A DNA stretch of 34,565 nt from a virus. The position numbers and the translations under genes are program-made. Under the pieces are notes generated by a model that was given only the letters and a program-made list of their open reading frames with translations, was not told where the DNA came from and ran no database searches. The DNA lies in the IMG/VR virus record IMGVR_UViG_3300025410_000623, positions 1 through 34,565 of that record; one strand, given 5' to 3'. Shown piece by piece: positions 12,350-19,555 of the stretch. Each line of letters starts with the position of its first letter. Position 1 is the first letter of the stretch.

Positions 12350-13957
12350 ATGCCTGCTAACATAAATGCTGGTGGAACATGGCAAAAAATATCTAAAATT
12401 TGGGCAAACGCTGGTGGAACTTGGCAGCAAATTCAAAAAGGTTGGGTAAATGCTGGTGGAACCTGGGAATTATTTTATTCGGGTAGTGGTTTACAACCAC
12501 CTGCTTCAATTTATGCATATCCTTTAGGTGGCAATGAAGTAGAGGTTACTTGGGGCAATGCCACTGCAGATTCTGGTTATACATTAACATATGATCTTTA
12601 TAGAAATACAACGGGGTCCACTCCCTCCTCTGGATCAACACCTTTTTCATCTGGAATTTCTTATACTTCTTATGTTGATACAAATGTAACTGTAGGATTA
12701 ACTTATTATTATTGGGTAAGATCAGTAGAAACAAGTGGTTCAACGATAAATAAATCTATTTGGGTTGGCCCAGCATCTGCAACAGTTATTTCAGAATCTT
12801 CATTATCATTTTCATCAATTACATTTTCTAATTATACCAGCATTGGATACACAGCTTCTTGGACATATACAAATCCAACCAGTTCAAATTTTTCTTATGT
12901 TGCTTTTGATAATGCAAGCTCTTACACTACTGCAAGCAACCCGCTAGGCTCTTTTACCGCAAATGCAAATTCCTCTGGAGTTGCAGCAAGCATAACTGTA
13001 TCATCATTGCCAACATCATGGTCATCAGATACTCTTTATTTACAATCTTCTGATGGAACTGTAACTCAAACAGGACAAGCAGTAAATCCAAATCCAAATG
13101 GTTATGCTGCCTATGTTGATTGTACTGGAACAAGCGGAAATTATTTTGGTACATATGGAACTCCACCAAATCCTCCTACAACAGGTCACAGCTATAAAGT
13201 AGGAACAGTGCCCAGTACTGGTTTAAGTTCAAATGAAATTATTAGTTATTTGGGTGTACCAGCTGCTTGTTCAGGATTTCCAACGCCAACCCCAACATCA
13301 ACGTCTACTTCAACTCCTACATCTACCACAACGCCTACACCAACTTCAACGCCTGCACCATGTCCACCGTCAACTGGCGGTCCATATACAGCAACAAGAG
13401 CAACTGATGCCACTTGTGCAGATTTAGGTTTAATTTATGTTTGTACATCATATAATCAAATTATTCAATATTGCTTATCAGCAACTCCAACTCCTACATC
13501 AACATCTACTACAACACCAACGCCTACATCTACTACAACACCAACGCCTACATCTACTACAACACCAACGCCTACATCTACTACAACATCTACATCAACA
13601 CCAGCACCAACTTTACCAGCTTGCCCAGGACAGGTAACAAATCCAACAAGCTATACATGTGCAGATTTAGGATTGCCTTATCTTGGAAATTATACACAAT
13701 ACAATATCCCTTATACATGGCAATGTTGTGGATCAGCAACACCAGCTCCAACTTCAACAAGTACTTCAACTTCAACAAGTACTTCAACTTCAACGCCAGC
13801 TCCAACTTCAACAAGTACTTCAACTTCAACAAGTACTTCAACTTCAACGCCAGCTCCAACTTCAACCTGTTCGCCAAACCAAGGTCAATCTTGTGGTCAT
13901 TATGGCAATGGATTTTACAACTGTGCGGGACTTTGTGCTGGAGACCATTGCTGCTAA
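12350..13957 (+). CDS. mucin-like, cysteine-rich tail fibre protein
   Basis: A 535-residue protein starting directly after the previous stop. Residues 6-39 hold three copies of NAGGTW with an exact 14-residue period, like the GGxW repeats of other phage minor tail proteins. About 50-140 is a fibronectin-III-like domain, and a second beta domain runs to about 240. After about residue 310 low-complexity Thr/Ser/Pro linkers (TPTPTSTSTSTPTSTTT) alternate with three small cysteine-rich modules. Two modules share a T-C-A-D-L-G-L core; the last ends GLCAGDHCC. The linkers resemble O-glycosylated linkers of extracellular proteins and would make an extended stalk. The DNA under the linkers is a minisatellite. 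It is the last tail gene before the hydroxylase/glycosyltransferase cassette and is the natural candidate substrate. Host-adhesion function is inferred. Confidence 0.7.
   Translation: MPANINAGGTWQKISKIWANAGGTWQQIQKGWVNAGGTWELFYSGSGLQPPASIYAYPLGGNEVEVTWGNATADSGYTLTYDLYRNTTGSTPSSGSTPFSSGISYTSYVDTNVTVGLTYYYWVRSVETSGSTINKSIWVGPASATVISESSLSFSSITFSNYTSIGYTASWTYTNPTSSNFSYVAFDNASSYTTASNPLGSFTANANSSGVAASITVSSLPTSWSSDTLYLQSSDGTVTQTGQAVNPNPNGYAAYVDCTGTSGNYFGTYGTPPNPPTTGHSYKVGTVPSTGLSSNEIISYLGVPAACSGFPTPTPTSTSTSTPTSTTTPTPTSTPAPCPPSTGGPYTATRATDATCADLGLIYVCTSYNQIIQYCLSATPTPTSTSTTTPTPTSTTTPTPTSTTTPTPTSTTTSTSTPAPTLPACPGQVTNPTSYTCADLGLPYLGNYTQYNIPYTWQCCGSATPAPTSTSTSTSTSTSTSTPAPTSTSTSTSTSTSTSTPAPTSTCSPNQGQSCGHYGNGFYNCAGLCAGDHCC
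12365..12466 (+). repeat. 42-base periodic NAGGTW coding repeat
   Basis: Three copies of the codons for NAGGTW begin at 12365, 12407 and 12449, giving an exact 42-base period at the N-terminus of the fibre. Copies differ mainly at third codon positions, so the repeat is selected as protein rather than recently copied. Confidence 0.8.
13511..13582 (+). repeat. 24-base tandem repeat, three perfect copies
   Basis: Three identical 24-base units lie head to tail at 13511-13534, 13535-13558 and 13559-13582, each encoding eight residues of Thr/Pro/Ser linker. The unit core is ACACCAACGCCTACATCTAC. The perfect identity, including synonymous sites, indicates recent slippage or recombination. Confidence 0.9.
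13742..13866 (+). repeat. 54-base tandem repeat, about 2.3 copies
   Basis: A 54-base unit starting CCAGCTCCAACTTCAACAAG begins at 13742, 13796 and 13850; the third copy stops after 17 bases. Within it the 18-base word ACTTCAACAAGTACTTCA recurs. It encodes 18 residues of Pro-Ala-Pro followed by alternating Thr/Ser, in frame, so copy-number change would lengthen or shorten the stalk without a frameshift. Confidence 0.9.
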
Positions 13958-13960
13958 TTA

Positions 13961-13989
13961 TTGACATCATTTACTTACAATGATATAAT
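13961..13989 (+). promoter_or_regulatory. consensus sigma-70-type promoter for modification cassette
   Basis: TTGACA (13961-13966) and TATAAT (13984-13989) are separated by 17 bases, with a TGA extended -10 just before the -10 box. This is a full match to the housekeeping consensus. It begins three bases after the fibre stop codon. Predicted transcription starts near 13996, immediately before the AAAGGAG ribosome site and TTG start at 14009. It would drive the six-gene cassette ending at 17963. Confidence 0.85.
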
Positions 13990-14008
13990 AAATAAAAAAG
14001 GAGTAATT

Positions 14009-14386
14009 TTGAAAAAGTATTATAATTTAATTATAGATAAAGAGATTATCCCCTTTGATTATGTTGAGATAGATCCAATTACGCAAATTCCATCTGATGA
14101 AGTATCTGCTATGTATGAAGTTATGTTTAATTCATCTAATAAATTTATTGATATTTCTTCTTTGCCGTATGATCCAATTGTTGGCAGTGAATGGGATGGA
14201 ACAAATTTTTATGATATTGGGGGAGTGATTTCAATAGATTATAATAAAACTAATTTAACAAGAATAGCTTTTCTAAAAGATTCAACTTATTTAGGAAGAA
14301 TAATGTATAATCAAACTGATAAGGCAAAGATGTTGATTGCAGCATTGTTAAGCCAACCCAAAATAGTATTAGATAGGATAGAGTAA
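14009..14386 (+). CDS. unknown protein, first gene of modification cassette
   Basis: I do not recognise this protein of about 125 residues. An upstream TTG at 13961 is in frame, but that TTG is the first half of the -35 box of a consensus promoter, so it cannot be the start on the main transcript. The TTG at 14009 follows AAAGGAG by five bases and is the best start, giving a protein that begins with KKYYNLIIDKEIIPFDYVEI. The protein is acidic and soluble-looking with no membrane segment or cysteine cluster. Residues about 60-90 have the pattern YDPIVGSEWDGTNFYDIGG. It shares one base with the next gene. As the first gene of the cassette it could be a partner or substrate protein; that is speculation. 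Confidence 0.7.
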   Translation: MKKYYNLIIDKEIIPFDYVEIDPITQIPSDEVSAMYEVMFNSSNKFIDISSLPYDPIVGSEWDGTNFYDIGGVISIDYNKTNLTRIAFLKDSTYLGRIMYNQTDKAKMLIAALLSQPKIVLDRIE

Positions 14387-14664
14387 TGTCTGAAGAAAAA
14401 ACACCTTGGCAGTTATGGAAAGAACAAAATGCAGGAATAGATCCAAAAATCTTACATAAAGAAAATAATAAAAAAGATGTAAAGCCATGGGATATTTTAA
14501 ACCCTAATACACAATGGGATTCTGAAGAAGGCGAAAAAAGATATGAAATATGTAAGGTTTGCCCAGAATTAATTAAATTAACAAAGCAATGTAAAAAATG
14601 TGGTTGTTTTATGAATGTAAAAACAAAAATGAAAGAAGCAACTTGTCCAATAGGAAAATGGTAA
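14386..14664 (+). CDS. small cysteine-rich zinc-ribbon protein
   Basis: This 92-residue protein starts at an ATG overlapping the previous stop. The C-terminal half carries C56-x2-C59, then C69-x2-C72-x-C74 and C87 in the text EICKVCPELIK, QCKKCGCFM and ATCPIGKW. This cysteine pattern occurs in small proteins of many cyanophages and other T4-like phages and probably binds zinc. Its biochemical role is not known. The N-terminal 50 residues are charged and likely flexible (TPWQLWKEQN). In phage genomes such proteins are often found beside 2-oxoglutarate oxygenases, as here, where the next gene is one. Confidence 0.75.
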   Translation: MSEEKTPWQLWKEQNAGIDPKILHKENNKKDVKPWDILNPNTQWDSEEGEKRYEICKVCPELIKLTKQCKKCGCFMNVKTKMKEATCPIGKW

Positions 14665-14668
14665 TTAG

Positions 14669-15268
14669 ATGTTTGAATTTGAAGAACTTGCCACGGGTAT
14701 TGTAAGTTATACCAATGTAATTGAAAATCCAGAAGATTTTATTAATGATCTTGAAGGATTGGTATTAATAAATAATTTAGCTTGGGCGGATGCTGGTCAA
14801 CAAACTGGTTATGAAAATGGTGTGGTTAAAAGCATAAGAGATTGCAAAACAATATCTTTGCCTCCTATTGATAATAATCAACCATTAAGAGAAACTACCC
14901 CTTATGCACAAGTAATGGTTCATGATTTTTTAAATGAATCTTTGTATCCCGCAATTAATCATTATAAAAATTTATATGCAGCATCCCAATGGGCTGATTC
15001 AGAAGGATGGCAAATATTAAAATATGGTAAAAATAATCATTTTATTAATCATTATGATGATGCAAAATCTTATCCACGCACAGTATCTATGAGTTTTTAT
15101 CTAAATGAAGATTATGAGGGCGGGGAAATAGAATTTGGTAGATTTAATTTAAAAATTAAACCAAAAGCAAATCAAATGATTATGTTCCCATCAAATTATA
15201 TTTATAACCACACGGTTCACCCAGTTATATCTGGCACTAGGTATGCAGTAGTGGCATGGTGGAATTAA
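14669..15268 (+). CDS. 2-oxoglutarate/Fe(II) oxygenase, prolyl-4-hydroxylase type
   Basis: A 199-residue dioxygenase that would couple 2-oxoglutarate decarboxylation to hydroxylation of a substrate. The Fe(II) site is visible: H128-Y-D130 in NHFINHYDD, and the distal H181 in NHTVHPV. R191 in SGTRYAVVAWW is placed to bind the 2-oxoglutarate C5 carboxylate. YPRTVSMSFYLNEDYEGGEI is the conserved strand-turn of the P4H family (compare LYLNDdfeGGE). All catalytic residues appear intact and the length fits single-domain phage and bacterial P4H-like enzymes. The start is four bases after the previous stop. Related phage enzymes have mostly unknown targets. Proline in the neighbouring fibre is a plausible substrate given the glycosyltransferase two genes downstream. 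Confidence 0.88.
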   Translation: MFEFEELATGIVSYTNVIENPEDFINDLEGLVLINNLAWADAGQQTGYENGVVKSIRDCKTISLPPIDNNQPLRETTPYAQVMVHDFLNESLYPAINHYKNLYAASQWADSEGWQILKYGKNNHFINHYDDAKSYPRTVSMSFYLNEDYEGGEIEFGRFNLKIKPKANQMIMFPSNYIYNHTVHPVISGTRYAVVAWWN

Positions 15269-15272
15269 TTAA

Positions 15273-16244
15273 ATGTCTCAAATAAAACTAGTGCAGCTAG
15301 ATCCAAATGGTTTATGTAATTCTGGCTGTTGGTTTTGTCCAGTAGCATACTCTCCTAATCCAGAAATTGGTAAAAAGAATATGCCTTTAGATACATTAAT
15401 AGATATTTTAATACAAATAAAAAATGGAATTGGTGACTTTGTTGCTTCGGATTTTACATTTGTTTATACCGCCCATTATAATGAAGTACTTTTGTATAAA
15501 GATTTTGAGGGAATGTTAAAAGTAATGCGTGATTTACAATTTAGAACGATGGTTTTAACAAATGGTATTCCGCTTACTCCAGAAAAAACAGATTTAATAA
15601 ATAATTATAAAGATGTTGTTGATTTAATTAATTTCAATGTACCTTCAGCTGACGCAGACACTTGGGCAAAAATGACTAATCGTAATCCAAGAATACATGA
15701 TAAAATAATTAATAATATTTCTTATGCCACACAAGTTTTGCCTTCTCAGATGTTGTCCATACAAATAAATGGAATTAACGAAAGTTCTTTGCCAGAAAAT
15801 GGTGGTTGGATGCAACCACTTGAAAATGCACCAAAGCTAAATTTATCAAATACCGACGGAGACTTAGCAACAGCATTTAATGATTTTAAAAGAATATTTC
15901 CAAATATAAATGTTTTTACAAATTCTGGACTGGTAGATCGTGCTGGTAATCTAGATGAAAATAGAGTAATGACTAATATGCCAGCTATTGAAAGATACAA
16001 TAAAAAAGGAAGCAAAGTTATAGGATGTAGCAATATGGGAGATAGAACTCAAACTTGGCTACATGTTAACGCAAATGGTGATGTATTTATTTGTTGTAAT
16101 GATTATAATTTTGAAACTGTTTTTGGTAATGTAAATCAATCTTCTATTAAAGAGATATGGGAAAGCGATTTAAGGCAAAAAACAATTAAGCATTCATTTG
16201 AAAATTTGTGTACAACTTGCTCCCATGCAATATGGGGAGATTGA
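15273..16244 (+). CDS. radical SAM enzyme with SPASM-like C-terminus
   Basis: A 323-residue radical S-adenosylmethionine protein. The N-terminus has C15-x3-C19-x2-C22 (NGLCNSGCWFCPVAY), the motif that holds the 4Fe-4S cluster which cleaves SAM. The barrel follows to about residue 240. The C-terminal part has cysteines in KVIGCSNMG, DVFICCNDYNFETVFGNV and ENLCTTCSHAI, with the GNV....I.EIW pattern of SPASM/twitch domains, which bind auxiliary clusters. SPASM proteins often modify peptides or proteins, but others act on small molecules or sugars. Its place between the hydroxylase and the glycosyltransferase suggests work in the same pathway. The substrate cannot be told from sequence. Confidence 0.88.
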   Translation: MSQIKLVQLDPNGLCNSGCWFCPVAYSPNPEIGKKNMPLDTLIDILIQIKNGIGDFVASDFTFVYTAHYNEVLLYKDFEGMLKVMRDLQFRTMVLTNGIPLTPEKTDLINNYKDVVDLINFNVPSADADTWAKMTNRNPRIHDKIINNISYATQVLPSQMLSIQINGINESSLPENGGWMQPLENAPKLNLSNTDGDLATAFNDFKRIFPNINVFTNSGLVDRAGNLDENRVMTNMPAIERYNKKGSKVIGCSNMGDRTQTWLHVNANGDVFICCNDYNFETVFGNVNQSSIKEIWESDLRQKTIKHSFENLCTTCSHAIWGD

Positions 16245-17155
16245 TGAAAAGCATATTTGTTCAAATAAGCTCATATCATGATTTAGAATTAAGTAAAACA
16301 ATCATGAATGCTATTGAAAAATCTTCAGGAATAAATCAAATAAATTTTGGGGTACATTCAATTTATTATGAAAATAATAATATAGAAATACCAGATTTGC
16401 CAAATGTTAAATATGTTATTAGTAAAGCACCAGACAATATAGGTATGGGCCGTGGAAGAGCTATAGCACATCAATTTTATGCTGGTGAAGATTACTATCT
16501 TCAAATTGATTCGCATAGCAGATTTGATAATAATTGGGATTCATATTTAATTAATTTAATTGAATACTATAAATCAGAGGGAATTGATAAACCTTTAATA
16601 ACAAACTATCCTAAACTTTATTGGTATGAAAATGATAAAGAAAAAATTAGAGAAATTGAAGATGTTGTAACACAGTTTTATTGGAAAGATCCAGAAGGCT
16701 TTAAAAATCATAGGATGCTTACCCAAGGAACTTATACTCCAAAAGAAAAAAACTATCATACAATAACGGTATCTGGCGGTTCAATTTTTGTTGAAGGTGA
16801 ATTTTTAAAACCAAATGAACTTATATATGCTAATGGTGAAGAAGTTTTTATTGCTGCAAGAGCTTTTACTAGTGGGTATTATTTAATGGCTCCAACAAAA
16901 CAGTTTATGTATCATTTATATTGGGAAGCTGATAAAGACAACAAAAGAAGAATTGTTTGGCATGATTTCTCAGAATTGTGTGCTTCCTTAAATGAAATTT
17001 CTAGAAATGAAATTTTTAATGTTTTATCAAATGGTTTAAAAGGAGAAGGTAGGCTGGGGGAAGAAAGAACTATTGAACAGTATGGCGAATACTGCGGGCT
17101 AGACTTTAAAAACGGATTGATATTAGATAATGGTGAAGATGTTATACGAAGATAA
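16244..17155 (+). CDS. GlcNAc-transferase-like glycosyltransferase (Skp1 Gnt1-type)
   Basis: A 303-residue GT-A fold enzyme. I chose ATG 16244, which shares one base with the preceding TGA and has GGGGA upstream; an in-frame ATG at 16208 would overlap more of the radical SAM gene. The signature GMGRGRAIAHQFYAGEDYYL followed by QIDSHSRF, with metal-binding D89-x-H91, matches the Pfam GlcNAc family (PF11397, CAZy GT60-like). That family includes the Dictyostelium Skp1 UDP-GlcNAc:hydroxyproline transferase. Later GEEVFIAARAFTSGYYLM and FMYHLY fit the same family. The likely donor is a UDP-sugar, plausibly UDP-GlcNAc, and the acceptor may be hydroxylated proline or Thr/Ser. The family assignment is good; donor and acceptor are inferred. 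Confidence 0.85.
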   Translation: MKSIFVQISSYHDLELSKTIMNAIEKSSGINQINFGVHSIYYENNNIEIPDLPNVKYVISKAPDNIGMGRGRAIAHQFYAGEDYYLQIDSHSRFDNNWDSYLINLIEYYKSEGIDKPLITNYPKLYWYENDKEKIREIEDVVTQFYWKDPEGFKNHRMLTQGTYTPKEKNYHTITVSGGSIFVEGEFLKPNELIYANGEEVFIAARAFTSGYYLMAPTKQFMYHLYWEADKDNKRRIVWHDFSELCASLNEISRNEIFNVLSNGLKGEGRLGEERTIEQYGEYCGLDFKNGLILDNGEDVIRR

Positions 17156-17963
17156 AATATTAGTAACTGGAGGATCTGGCTATATAGGGCAAGCCACAAT
17201 GTCTCTTATACCTAAAGCAATAAACGCTGATTTAAGAGATAATGGTTATCCAGTCAATCTTTTAAATTATAACGATCTGTATTTTTACATGATGTCAAAA
17301 GAAATAAAAGCTGTTCTACACTTAGCTGCCTTTAAAAGCATAAATGATTCTTTAATTAATCCTGTAAAATATTATTATAACAATATGGTATCAAGCTTAA
17401 ATATTTTAAAAGTTTGTAAAGAATTAAATATTCCAATTGTTTTTGCTTCAAGTGCTGCAATATATAACAATAGCAATCCATATTCAAAAACAAAAATGTT
17501 TTTTGAAGAAATAATTAAAGATTCTTTTGTTGACTATATAATTTTAAGATACTTTAATGTAGGTGGACTTATTAAAAATCCAAATGAATATCAGAAAGAA
17601 AATGTTTTTGATATAATTAGAGATTGTTTAAATTTAGATAAACATTTTACTTTAAATAAATATACATCTCCAAGAGATTATTCTCATGTTATGGACATTG
17701 CTGAAATTAATGTTGAAGCTTTAAAAATGGTTATGGGCGGGATTAAAAATAAAACATACGATGTTTACTCAGGTAGCAGCACTTCCTTAGATACAATAAT
17801 AAACATGTATAAAGAAAAAGGTTTTAATATTAAAACAGTAGAAAATAGCAATGTTGTTGAAAAAGAAGTACAAATAAATAAAAATAGATTTCCTCATATA
17901 AACAAGTTTAATATTGAAGACATTATAGATTCAGAAATTAAGTATGGCGTTGACAAAAAATAA
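17130..17963 (+). CDS. NAD-dependent sugar-nucleotide epimerase, GalE-like
   Basis: A 277-residue extended short-chain dehydrogenase/reductase. The Rossmann motif G14-x2-G17-x2-G20 is in LVTGGSGYIG, HLAAFKS follows near residue 65, FASSAAIY near 106-112, and the catalytic Y118-x3-K122 is in NPYSKTK. ILRYFNVGG near 138-146 is typical of UDP-glucose/UDP-GlcNAc 4-epimerases. It is about 60 residues shorter than GalE, so the sugar-binding part is reduced. It probably makes or alters the sugar nucleotide used by the upstream glycosyltransferase. The start is uncertain: ATG 17130 overlaps the previous gene by 26 bases, and ATG 17139, which gives MLYEDKILVTGG, is equally plausible. The end lies inside the next promoter. 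Confidence 0.83.
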   Translation: MVKMLYEDKILVTGGSGYIGQATMSLIPKAINADLRDNGYPVNLLNYNDLYFYMMSKEIKAVLHLAAFKSINDSLINPVKYYYNNMVSSLNILKVCKELNIPIVFASSAAIYNNSNPYSKTKMFFEEIIKDSFVDYIILRYFNVGGLIKNPNEYQKENVFDIIRDCLNLDKHFTLNKYTSPRDYSHVMDIAEINVEALKMVMGGIKNKTYDVYSGSSTSLDTIINMYKEKGFNIKTVENSNVVEKEVQINKNRFPHINKFNIEDIIDSEIKYGVDKK

Positions 17964-17979
17964 GTGCGTGTGCTATACT
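17950..17979 (+). promoter_or_regulatory. sigma-70-type promoter for coiled-coil genes
   Basis: TTGACA (17950-17955) and TATACT (17974-17979) are 18 bases apart, with TGC as an extended -10. The -35 lies inside the end of the epimerase gene. Predicted start near 17986 leaves a 16-base leader containing GGGGAA before ATG 18002. This placement argues against the in-frame GTG at 17990 as start codon. Confidence 0.75.
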
Positions 17980-18853: not shown

Positions 18854-19295
18854 TACCACAGTAGATAATGCAGTAATTGATTATACGGCTATCGCAAGCC
18901 TTTTGCAGACTGTTAAAAGCCATGATGATCTTTTTGTACAATTTAGTTCAGGATCACTAGGAAATATTGCTACAGACACATTGTCTGGAGGAACAGTAAC
19001 AACATCTGGCAATCCAATTCCAGCATCTTCATTTTTAATGCAAGGTGCTCAAATTAATGGAACGCTAACAAATGGTAATGCTGTTGTAAAAGTATTGTGG
19101 GGTCAAGCTTTTGGCGGGACTCCAATTGTTACTGCAACACCAGTAATGACTCCTTCTACAGCAAGTCCATCAACTTATATTCAATCAATTGATGGTACTA
19201 CTGGAGCAACCATAGTAATCAACAATAATGATTCTGCAACAAAAACTGCAGCATTTACCTTACAAGTACTTGCATTAGGTGTAAGAGCTTCCTAA
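18843..19295 (+). CDS. putative small virion protein, fibre-tip-like
   Basis: A 150-residue protein starting at TTG 18843, with a strong GAGGGAG ribosome site six bases upstream, overlapping the previous stop by 11 bases. It starts MAVNTTVDNAVIDYTAIASL. A short helical head is followed by a Thr/Ser/Gly-rich beta region: VVKVLWGQAFGGTPIVTATP and then ATIVINNNDSATKTAAFTLQ. This resembles C-terminal knob or receptor-binding domains of phage fibres (H-type-lectin-like texture), but I cannot name a family. The context of small structural candidates before the HNH gene supports a virion role. An assembly or decoration protein is also possible. Confidence 0.6.
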   Translation: MAVNTTVDNAVIDYTAIASLLQTVKSHDDLFVQFSSGSLGNIATDTLSGGTVTTSGNPIPASSFLMQGAQINGTLTNGNAVVKVLWGQAFGGTPIVTATPVMTPSTASPSTYIQSIDGTTGATIVINNNDSATKTAAFTLQVLALGVRAS

Positions 19296-19555
19296 TGTAC
19301 GATCCTATCAAGTTTTGGACAAAACGAGATAGAAAAATCAGCAAAGAAGGATATGTTCTAATAAAAGTACCAGAACATCCTAAAAATTTTAAAGGCTGGT
19401 ACTATGAGCATCGTCTCATGATTGAAAAAGAATTAAATAGAATGATTGAAGATTGGGAAACCATTCATCATATTAATGAAAATAAGACTGATAATAGATT
19501 AATTAATCTATTTCTTTGCTCAAGATTAGAGCATAATAAAGCACACGCTGCTTGA
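19295..19555 (+). CDS. free-standing HNH endonuclease
   Basis: An 86-residue HNH nuclease of the homing-endonuclease type. The text GYVLIKVPEHP (19-29), YYEHRLMIEK (36-45), IHHINENKTDNRLINLFLC (57-75) and SRLEHNKAH (76-84) matches the N-terminal strand, helix and H-H..N..D-N..N-L core of HNH_3 proteins. H58/H59, N67 and H80 are likely catalytic or metal ligands. The ATG overlaps the previous stop by one base. It carries no separate DNA-recognition domain, as is common in phage mobile HNH genes. Its presence between structural and lysis-like genes suggests an insertion, and it is probably a selfish element. A packaging role is less likely. Confidence 0.85.
   Translation: MYDPIKFWTKRDRKISKEGYVLIKVPEHPKNFKGWYYEHRLMIEKELNRMIEDWETIHHINENKTDNRLINLFLCSRLEHNKAHAA

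Follow-up and report, generated by a model that had tools for sequence, protein, structure and literature searches.

Here, we describe a gene cluster at positions 12350 to 17963 of IMG/VR virus record IMGVR_UViG_3300025410_000623 (34,565 bases; this whole stretch is called the window below), in which a tail fibre-like gene is followed by genes for a prolyl-4-hydroxylase (P4H)-like oxygenase, a radical S-adenosylmethionine (SAM) enzyme, a PF11397-type transferase, and a GalE-like epimerase. A first-pass annotation of the sequence had read these genes as a possible system that hydroxylates proline in the fibre and then places N-acetylglucosamine (GlcNAc) on the hydroxyproline (Hyp). The fibre, a promoter, and the four enzymes were all recovered where it had put them, and two members absent from it, a DUF6171 protein and a small open reading frame (ORF), were added.

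All features lie on the plus strand. Tape-measure and minor tail genes precede the fibre ORF (12350..13957; 535 amino acids [aa]), the presumed substrate, which was assigned on its ORF, composition, and tandem repeats. Directly 3′ of its stop lies a perfect extended sigma-70-type promoter (13961..13989; TTGACA-17-TATAAT, 12/12, extended −10), which would start the enzyme unit. This unit comprises the small ORF (14009..14386; probable start TTG 14009, behind AGGAG), the Cys-rich, zinc-ribbon-like DUF6171/phrog_13558 protein (14386..14664; PF19668, 6e-7; phrog_13558, 4e-15), the P4H-like 2-oxoglutarate (2OG)-Fe(II) oxygenase with an HxD...H...R motif (14669..15268; PF13640, 5e-17), the radical SAM/SPASM enzyme (15273..16244; PF04055, 8e-12; PF13186, 1.5e-12), a predicted PF11397/GT60-type polypeptide N-acetylhexosamine (HexNAc) transferase with a DxH motif (16244..17155; PF11397, 4e-31), and the GalE-like nucleotide-sugar 4-epimerase (17130..17963; PF01370, 1.5e-25; TIGR01179, 7e-29, yet below its cut-off), the likely supplier of the donor sugar. 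The transferase more likely starts at ATG 16244 than at GTG 16208, because the upstream stop overlaps that ATG. At the cluster end, a second strong, extended promoter-like site (17950..17979; 11/12) closes the unit and precedes the next one.

The oxygenase belongs to the broad PHROG phrog_61 (1e-31), and its profile matches the Bacillus anthracis P4H (3itq) at 3e-12. Residues H128, D130, and H181 are invariant across 14 relatives, in which R191 is R or K. Its structural model (predicted local distance difference test [pLDDT], 88.7) has prolyl hydroxylases as its top PDB matches, Dictyostelium PHD at the head, with human PHD2, PBCV-1 P4H, and Chlamydomonas P4H (template modelling [TM] scores, 0.71 for 6t8m and 0.73 for PHD2; 5c5t and 2jig also matched). 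The oxygenases of isolated phages all fall below 60% identity.

In the transferase, D89-x-H91 is invariant across 11 relatives. A PDB sequence search found no relative; the structural model (pLDDT, 89.0) has a glycosyltransferase A (GT-A) fold, and its top PDB matches are the polypeptide N-acetylgalactosamine (GalNAc) transferases PGANT9 and GalNAc-T2 (E 8e-9), members of the class of enzymes that start mucin O-glycans. PF11397 corresponds to GT60. Both family claims of the first-pass annotation thus hold, namely, a P4H-type oxygenase with intact H128/D130/H181/R191 and a PF11397 transferase, whose fold is nearest polypeptide HexNAc-transferases. GT60 includes mucin-type Thr transferases of Dictyostelium and Trypanosoma cruzi, to which the transferase acting on Skp1 hydroxyproline is related (PMC8724618); therefore, family alone cannot separate a Hyp from a Thr acceptor. 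Only three isolates carry the transferase (Stenotrophomonas phages CM1 and RAS14 and Xanthomonas phage XacN1), and in the two that were inspected, no Thr/Pro-rich ORF was seen near it. A second transferase group (L354-L402; ~415 aa, with an extra C-terminal domain) often adjoins TP(N/T/S) repeats, in large phages without the oxygenase; its cultured relatives are in XacN1 (46%) and RAS14/CM1 (42%). One phage-like contig (L372:1773-3428) encodes a single 551-aa ORF with an N-terminal PF11397 domain (4e-74) and a C-terminal PF13640 domain (6e-16), which parallels protist P4H-Gnt1 fusions and recalls the dual-function P4H/GlcNAc-transferase named in a title cited by PMC8724618.

Residues 301 to 535 of the fibre contain 34 P, 68 T, and 35 S, with TPT as the most frequent Pro context. 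This C-terminal part consists of mucin-like TPT/STST repeats, not Gly-X-Y, and is a Thr/Ser(-Pro)-rich domain of the kind expected of a mucin-type acceptor. The N-terminus carries a triple GGTW/NGTW repeat (NGTWR; window 12364-12466) that is common to fibres of different phages (L005, L006, and L414) and is perhaps an attachment module allowing fibre swaps between phages. In many Pro-repeat fibres (L334, L336, L337, L048, L007, L015, and others), the C-terminus is a Hint/intein-like domain with a Cys start (CVEENTLVDTPSGQIPVKNLQVGDVIWST), which suggests self-processing after the repeat. Viral contigs commonly encode very long tail proteins of the form (PPFFPPFFPFF)n (L030, L009, L022, and ~60 other viral loci); we know of no description of them.

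For the small ORF (14009..14386), family profile searches gave no match; ORFs of like size hold its position in L005, L346, and L351. At L123:930-2132, a DUF6171 zinc-ribbon-like domain is fused to the N-terminus of a PF11397 transferase, a fusion that makes the DUF6171 protein probably a partner or helper of the transferase. By the profile used, DUF6171 lies upstream of the oxygenase in only 3/33 oxygenase-selected loci and so appears tied to the transferase instead. The radical SAM enzyme carries C-X3-C-X2-C and a SPASM cluster domain, matches the named maturase families of NCBIfam only below cut-off, and has BtrN, which acts on an aminocyclitol, as its best, though weak, PDB relative (2.7e-8); its substrate may be a sugar or a fibre side chain.

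The order DUF6171-oxygenase-radical SAM-transferase(-epimerase) behind a TP-rich fibre was found in L002/L005, L303, and L323-L331, and also in L003, where the fibre is incomplete since the contig starts there. This gene order recurs in at least 8 other viral contigs, which is far beyond chance. Elsewhere in the window, a small HNH endonuclease gene (19295..19555) lies between the tail and replication genes.

Associations with fibre composition were measured in loci picked by oxygenase homology alone (35 unique loci), with tail-sheath-selected loci without either enzyme as background (n=34). A Pro-rich ORF was defined by ≥15 P per 60 aa within 5 kb, excluding Gly-rich windows. Such Pro-repeat, noncollagen ORFs occurred in 33/35 oxygenase loci versus 1/34 background loci (Fisher, 4e-16), and on this sheath-selected control, chance or a generic tail-region neighbourhood was rejected as the explanation. 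The repeats near the oxygenase were PPFF, PPGFF, TPTP, TPAV, PPDFTPA, PPPIIAT, PSPYYAP, and poly-Pro, with Pro as their sole common residue. In the reverse direction, of 60 fibres picked out solely by a PPFFPPFF DNA pattern, 48 had an oxygenase within 5 kb. Within the sheath sample, poly-Pro fibres have the oxygenase and collagen-like PTGPTG ORFs do not; the small 2 × 2 comparison in this sample is weak taken alone (p 0.01-0.08). The oxygenase tracks proline.

Transferase loci were likewise picked by transferase homology alone (n=57), with a Thr-rich ORF defined by ≥20 T per 60 aa. Such an ORF was present in 32/57 of these loci versus 3/34 of the background (5e-6). PPFF fibres near a transferase had 6 to 14 T per 20 aa (n=6), versus a median near 3 in those without one (n=99; Mann-Whitney, 4e-5), and poly-Thr fibres in which Pro is rare or absent adjoin the transferase in L342, L345, L348, and L351. 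Among cellular homologues, a Thr-rich ORF was near only 1 of ~30 loci, and that one may be viral; the link to Thr as a property of the whole family was rejected on this count. When the transferase-only records were searched whole (up to 229 kb) with the oxygenase profile or PF13640, 29/31 gave no match, with the caveat that records may be fragments or the hydroxylase of a distant type; the window itself has both enzymes. The transferase tracks threonine. The T. cruzi enzyme has as its known acceptor KPPTTTTTTTTKPP (PMC3769586), which resembles the phage repeats PPPTTTT and TTTTAAP.

The cluster is best explained as a phage-encoded cassette for posttranslational modification of the phage's own repeat-rich fibre, a reading we hold to be probable, in which Pro hydroxylation is combined with mucin-type HexNAc on Thr/Ser. 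From the families, catalytic residues, folds, conserved operon, and the separate oxygenase-Pro and transferase-Thr associations, we infer the substrates, linkage, order, sugar, and benefit as follows. The P4H-like oxygenase would hydroxylate prolines of the fibre repeats, and the PF11397 transferase would add HexNAc to the fibre, most probably on Thr/Ser of the TP/TST repeats, as in mucin-type initiation. The epimerase would feed the donor sugar, the radical SAM enzyme would add a further change to the fibre, and the DUF6171 protein would probably bring an enzyme to it. This would make the fibre stiff, hydrated, and coated with glycans, and each mark would be present when its residue is: the oxygenase where there is Pro and the transferase where there is Thr. 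The acceptor is more likely to be Thr/Ser, and Pro hydroxylation to be a distinct modification of the same fibre, because the transferase occurs without the oxygenase, beside Pro-poor poly-Thr fibres, and with Thr runs in PPFF fibres. Across the hundreds of viral contigs compared, the pattern suggests Thr as the main site of the sugars, as it is in the mucins of animals and trypanosomes.

Several observations weigh against this account. At the threshold used, 25/57 transferase loci have no Thr-rich ORF, and some fibres beside the transferase are Thr poor (PPPIIAT in L330/L332, PSPYYAP in L335, and poly-Pro in L414/L417). Just 6 transferase-bearing fibres underlie the difference in Thr among PPFF fibres, and many of the contigs compared are fragments. 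The loci are also related: in the clade of the window transferase (28 rows), the oxygenase does go with P≥12 (17/18 versus 3/10; p 7e-4) and not with Thr, which favours the account, but the clade holds only 2 to 3 independent pairs, and the test is only suggestive. Contigs selected by a TP-repeat pattern were without either enzyme within 5 kb in 73/85 cases, and this pattern was discarded as a poor finder of the system.

The sequence of events known from Skp1, in which the oxygenase would convert fibre prolines to 4-hydroxyproline and GlcNAc would then be attached to that Hyp by the transferase, is an unlikely but serious alternative. The Skp1 hydroxyproline enzyme is among GT60 and its relatives (PMC8724618), Dictyostelium PHD is the top fold match of the oxygenase, one operon holds both enzymes in the window clade, and the L372 ORF fuses the PF11397 and PF13640 domains. 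Both enzymes also stand beside a poly-Pro fibre with scarce Thr (L414), and transfer to Hyp is possible where Thr is scarce (L414 and L335). Such a pathway would make the transferase depend on the hydroxylase, yet 29/31 transferase-only records are without an oxygenase match. The transferase also occurs with almost Pro-free poly-Thr fibres, Thr runs are seen in PPFF fibres chiefly together with the transferase, and no transferase lies near ~70 of the loci that pair a Pro repeat with the oxygenase. The first-pass annotation is therefore upheld in part, as to the enzyme families, the gene pair, and the co-occurrence of that pair with Pro/Thr-rich fibres in other viruses, which is strong; a strict Hyp-then-GlcNAc order is given up as the default because of the transferase-only records, the Pro-poor poly-Thr fibres, and the Thr runs that come with the transferase.

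It is less likely again that the enzymes act elsewhere (on host or phage glycans, nucleotides, DNA, or 2OG pools) and that they adjoin the fibre only because tail regions collect accessory genes. BtrN, the best PDB relative of the radical SAM enzyme, with its aminocyclitol substrate, fits such a role. A role in tuning 2OG/nitrogen status has been put forward for the 2OG oxygenases of cyanophages (PMC3037559), and one in altering lipopolysaccharide (LPS) for the glycosyltransferases of pelagimyophages (PMC7029224); a related oxygenase of the cultured Synechococcus phage S-SCSM2R sits in a broad glycan-type cluster. Against this, Pro and Thr repeats are missing from the tail-region background, the make-up of the repeats varies with the enzyme present, and the folds match peptide-modifying enzymes. 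The S-SCSM2R cluster (L485; 228-236 kb of the record) is dense, with 2OG oxygenases, several glycosyltransferases, a radical SAM maturase, and an amidinotransferase. Collagen-type Pro hydroxylation that would stabilize a triple helix, a role considered for viral P4H in PMC9301287, is highly improbable: phage collagens are known, as is viral P4H, but the repeats adjoining the oxygenase, TPT/STST in the window, are not Gly-X-Y, and the PTGPTG collagen-like ORFs of the sheath sample are without the oxygenase.

The proposed fibre-modification cassette has both enzyme families in common with the Skp1 pathway of Dictyostelium and Toxoplasma (a prolyl hydroxylase, then the GT60-related Gnt1); in the phage, they are joined in a single operon, and the oxygenase model is nearest Dictyostelium PHD. 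It differs in its presumed substrate, a repeat-rich viral fibre rather than Skp1, in a transferase that is often without the oxygenase and tracks Thr, and in the extra radical SAM, DUF6171, and epimerase genes. With the mucin-type GT60 polypeptide alpha-GlcNAc-transferases of T. cruzi and the animal polypeptide GalNAc-transferases, it has in common a PF11397/GT60-type family, a GT-A fold nearest GalNAc-T2 and PGANT9, and Thr/Pro-rich acceptors, which in the phage are encoded beside the enzyme; unlike them, the phage enzyme is a prediction, without a lectin domain, its substrate would be a tail fibre, and a prolyl hydroxylase accompanies it in a subset. The P4H of PBCV-1 (PDB 5c5t), which acts on the virus's Pro-repeat peptides according to Eriksson 1999 as cited in PMC9301287, is likewise a virus-encoded P4H fold with Pro-repeat substrates. 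PBCV-1 is a eukaryotic algal virus, whereas here the virus is bacterial, the fibre is adjacent, and the operon with the transferase is conserved. The phrog_61 2OG-Fe(II) oxygenases of cyanophages and other phages are annotated as auxiliary metabolic or host takeover genes; here, a Pro-repeat fibre is found as a concrete partner of the oxygenase. For the capsid of mycobacteriophage Maravista, glycosylation by phage-encoded glycosyltransferases has been proposed (PMC11256854), which is alike in that a phage enzyme would modify a virion protein and differs in substrate and in having no hydroxylase. Precedents are known for a viral P4H (PBCV-1) and for glycosylation of phage virions, and no description of this combined fibre hydroxylation/glycosylation system was found in the literature searched, in which such genes are proposed to serve 2OG/nitrogen control (PMC3037559) or LPS change (PMC7029224) or are called “cryptic” (PMC9301287).

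The cassette offers a concrete, testable function for 2OG oxygenases, which are very common in phages and for whose viral P4H members a 2022 survey called the use “cryptic” (PMC9301287). If true, it would be, in the literature searched, the first case of a system for mucin-like O-glycosylation and prolyl hydroxylation in bacterial viruses, and a source of soluble bacterial-virus enzymes for making hydroxylated, glycosylated repeat proteins. It would also bear on the mechanics of the fibre and on attachment to the host. On balance, we lean toward the view that aquatic phages have built a modular system from P4H, GT60-type, radical SAM, and DUF6171 parts that marks low-complexity fibre repeats, with Hyp on Pro repeats, a mucin-type sugar on Thr repeats, and both on mixed ones, and that would be the analogue, in bacterial viruses, of the hydroxyproline-rich glycoproteins of plants and the mucins of animals.

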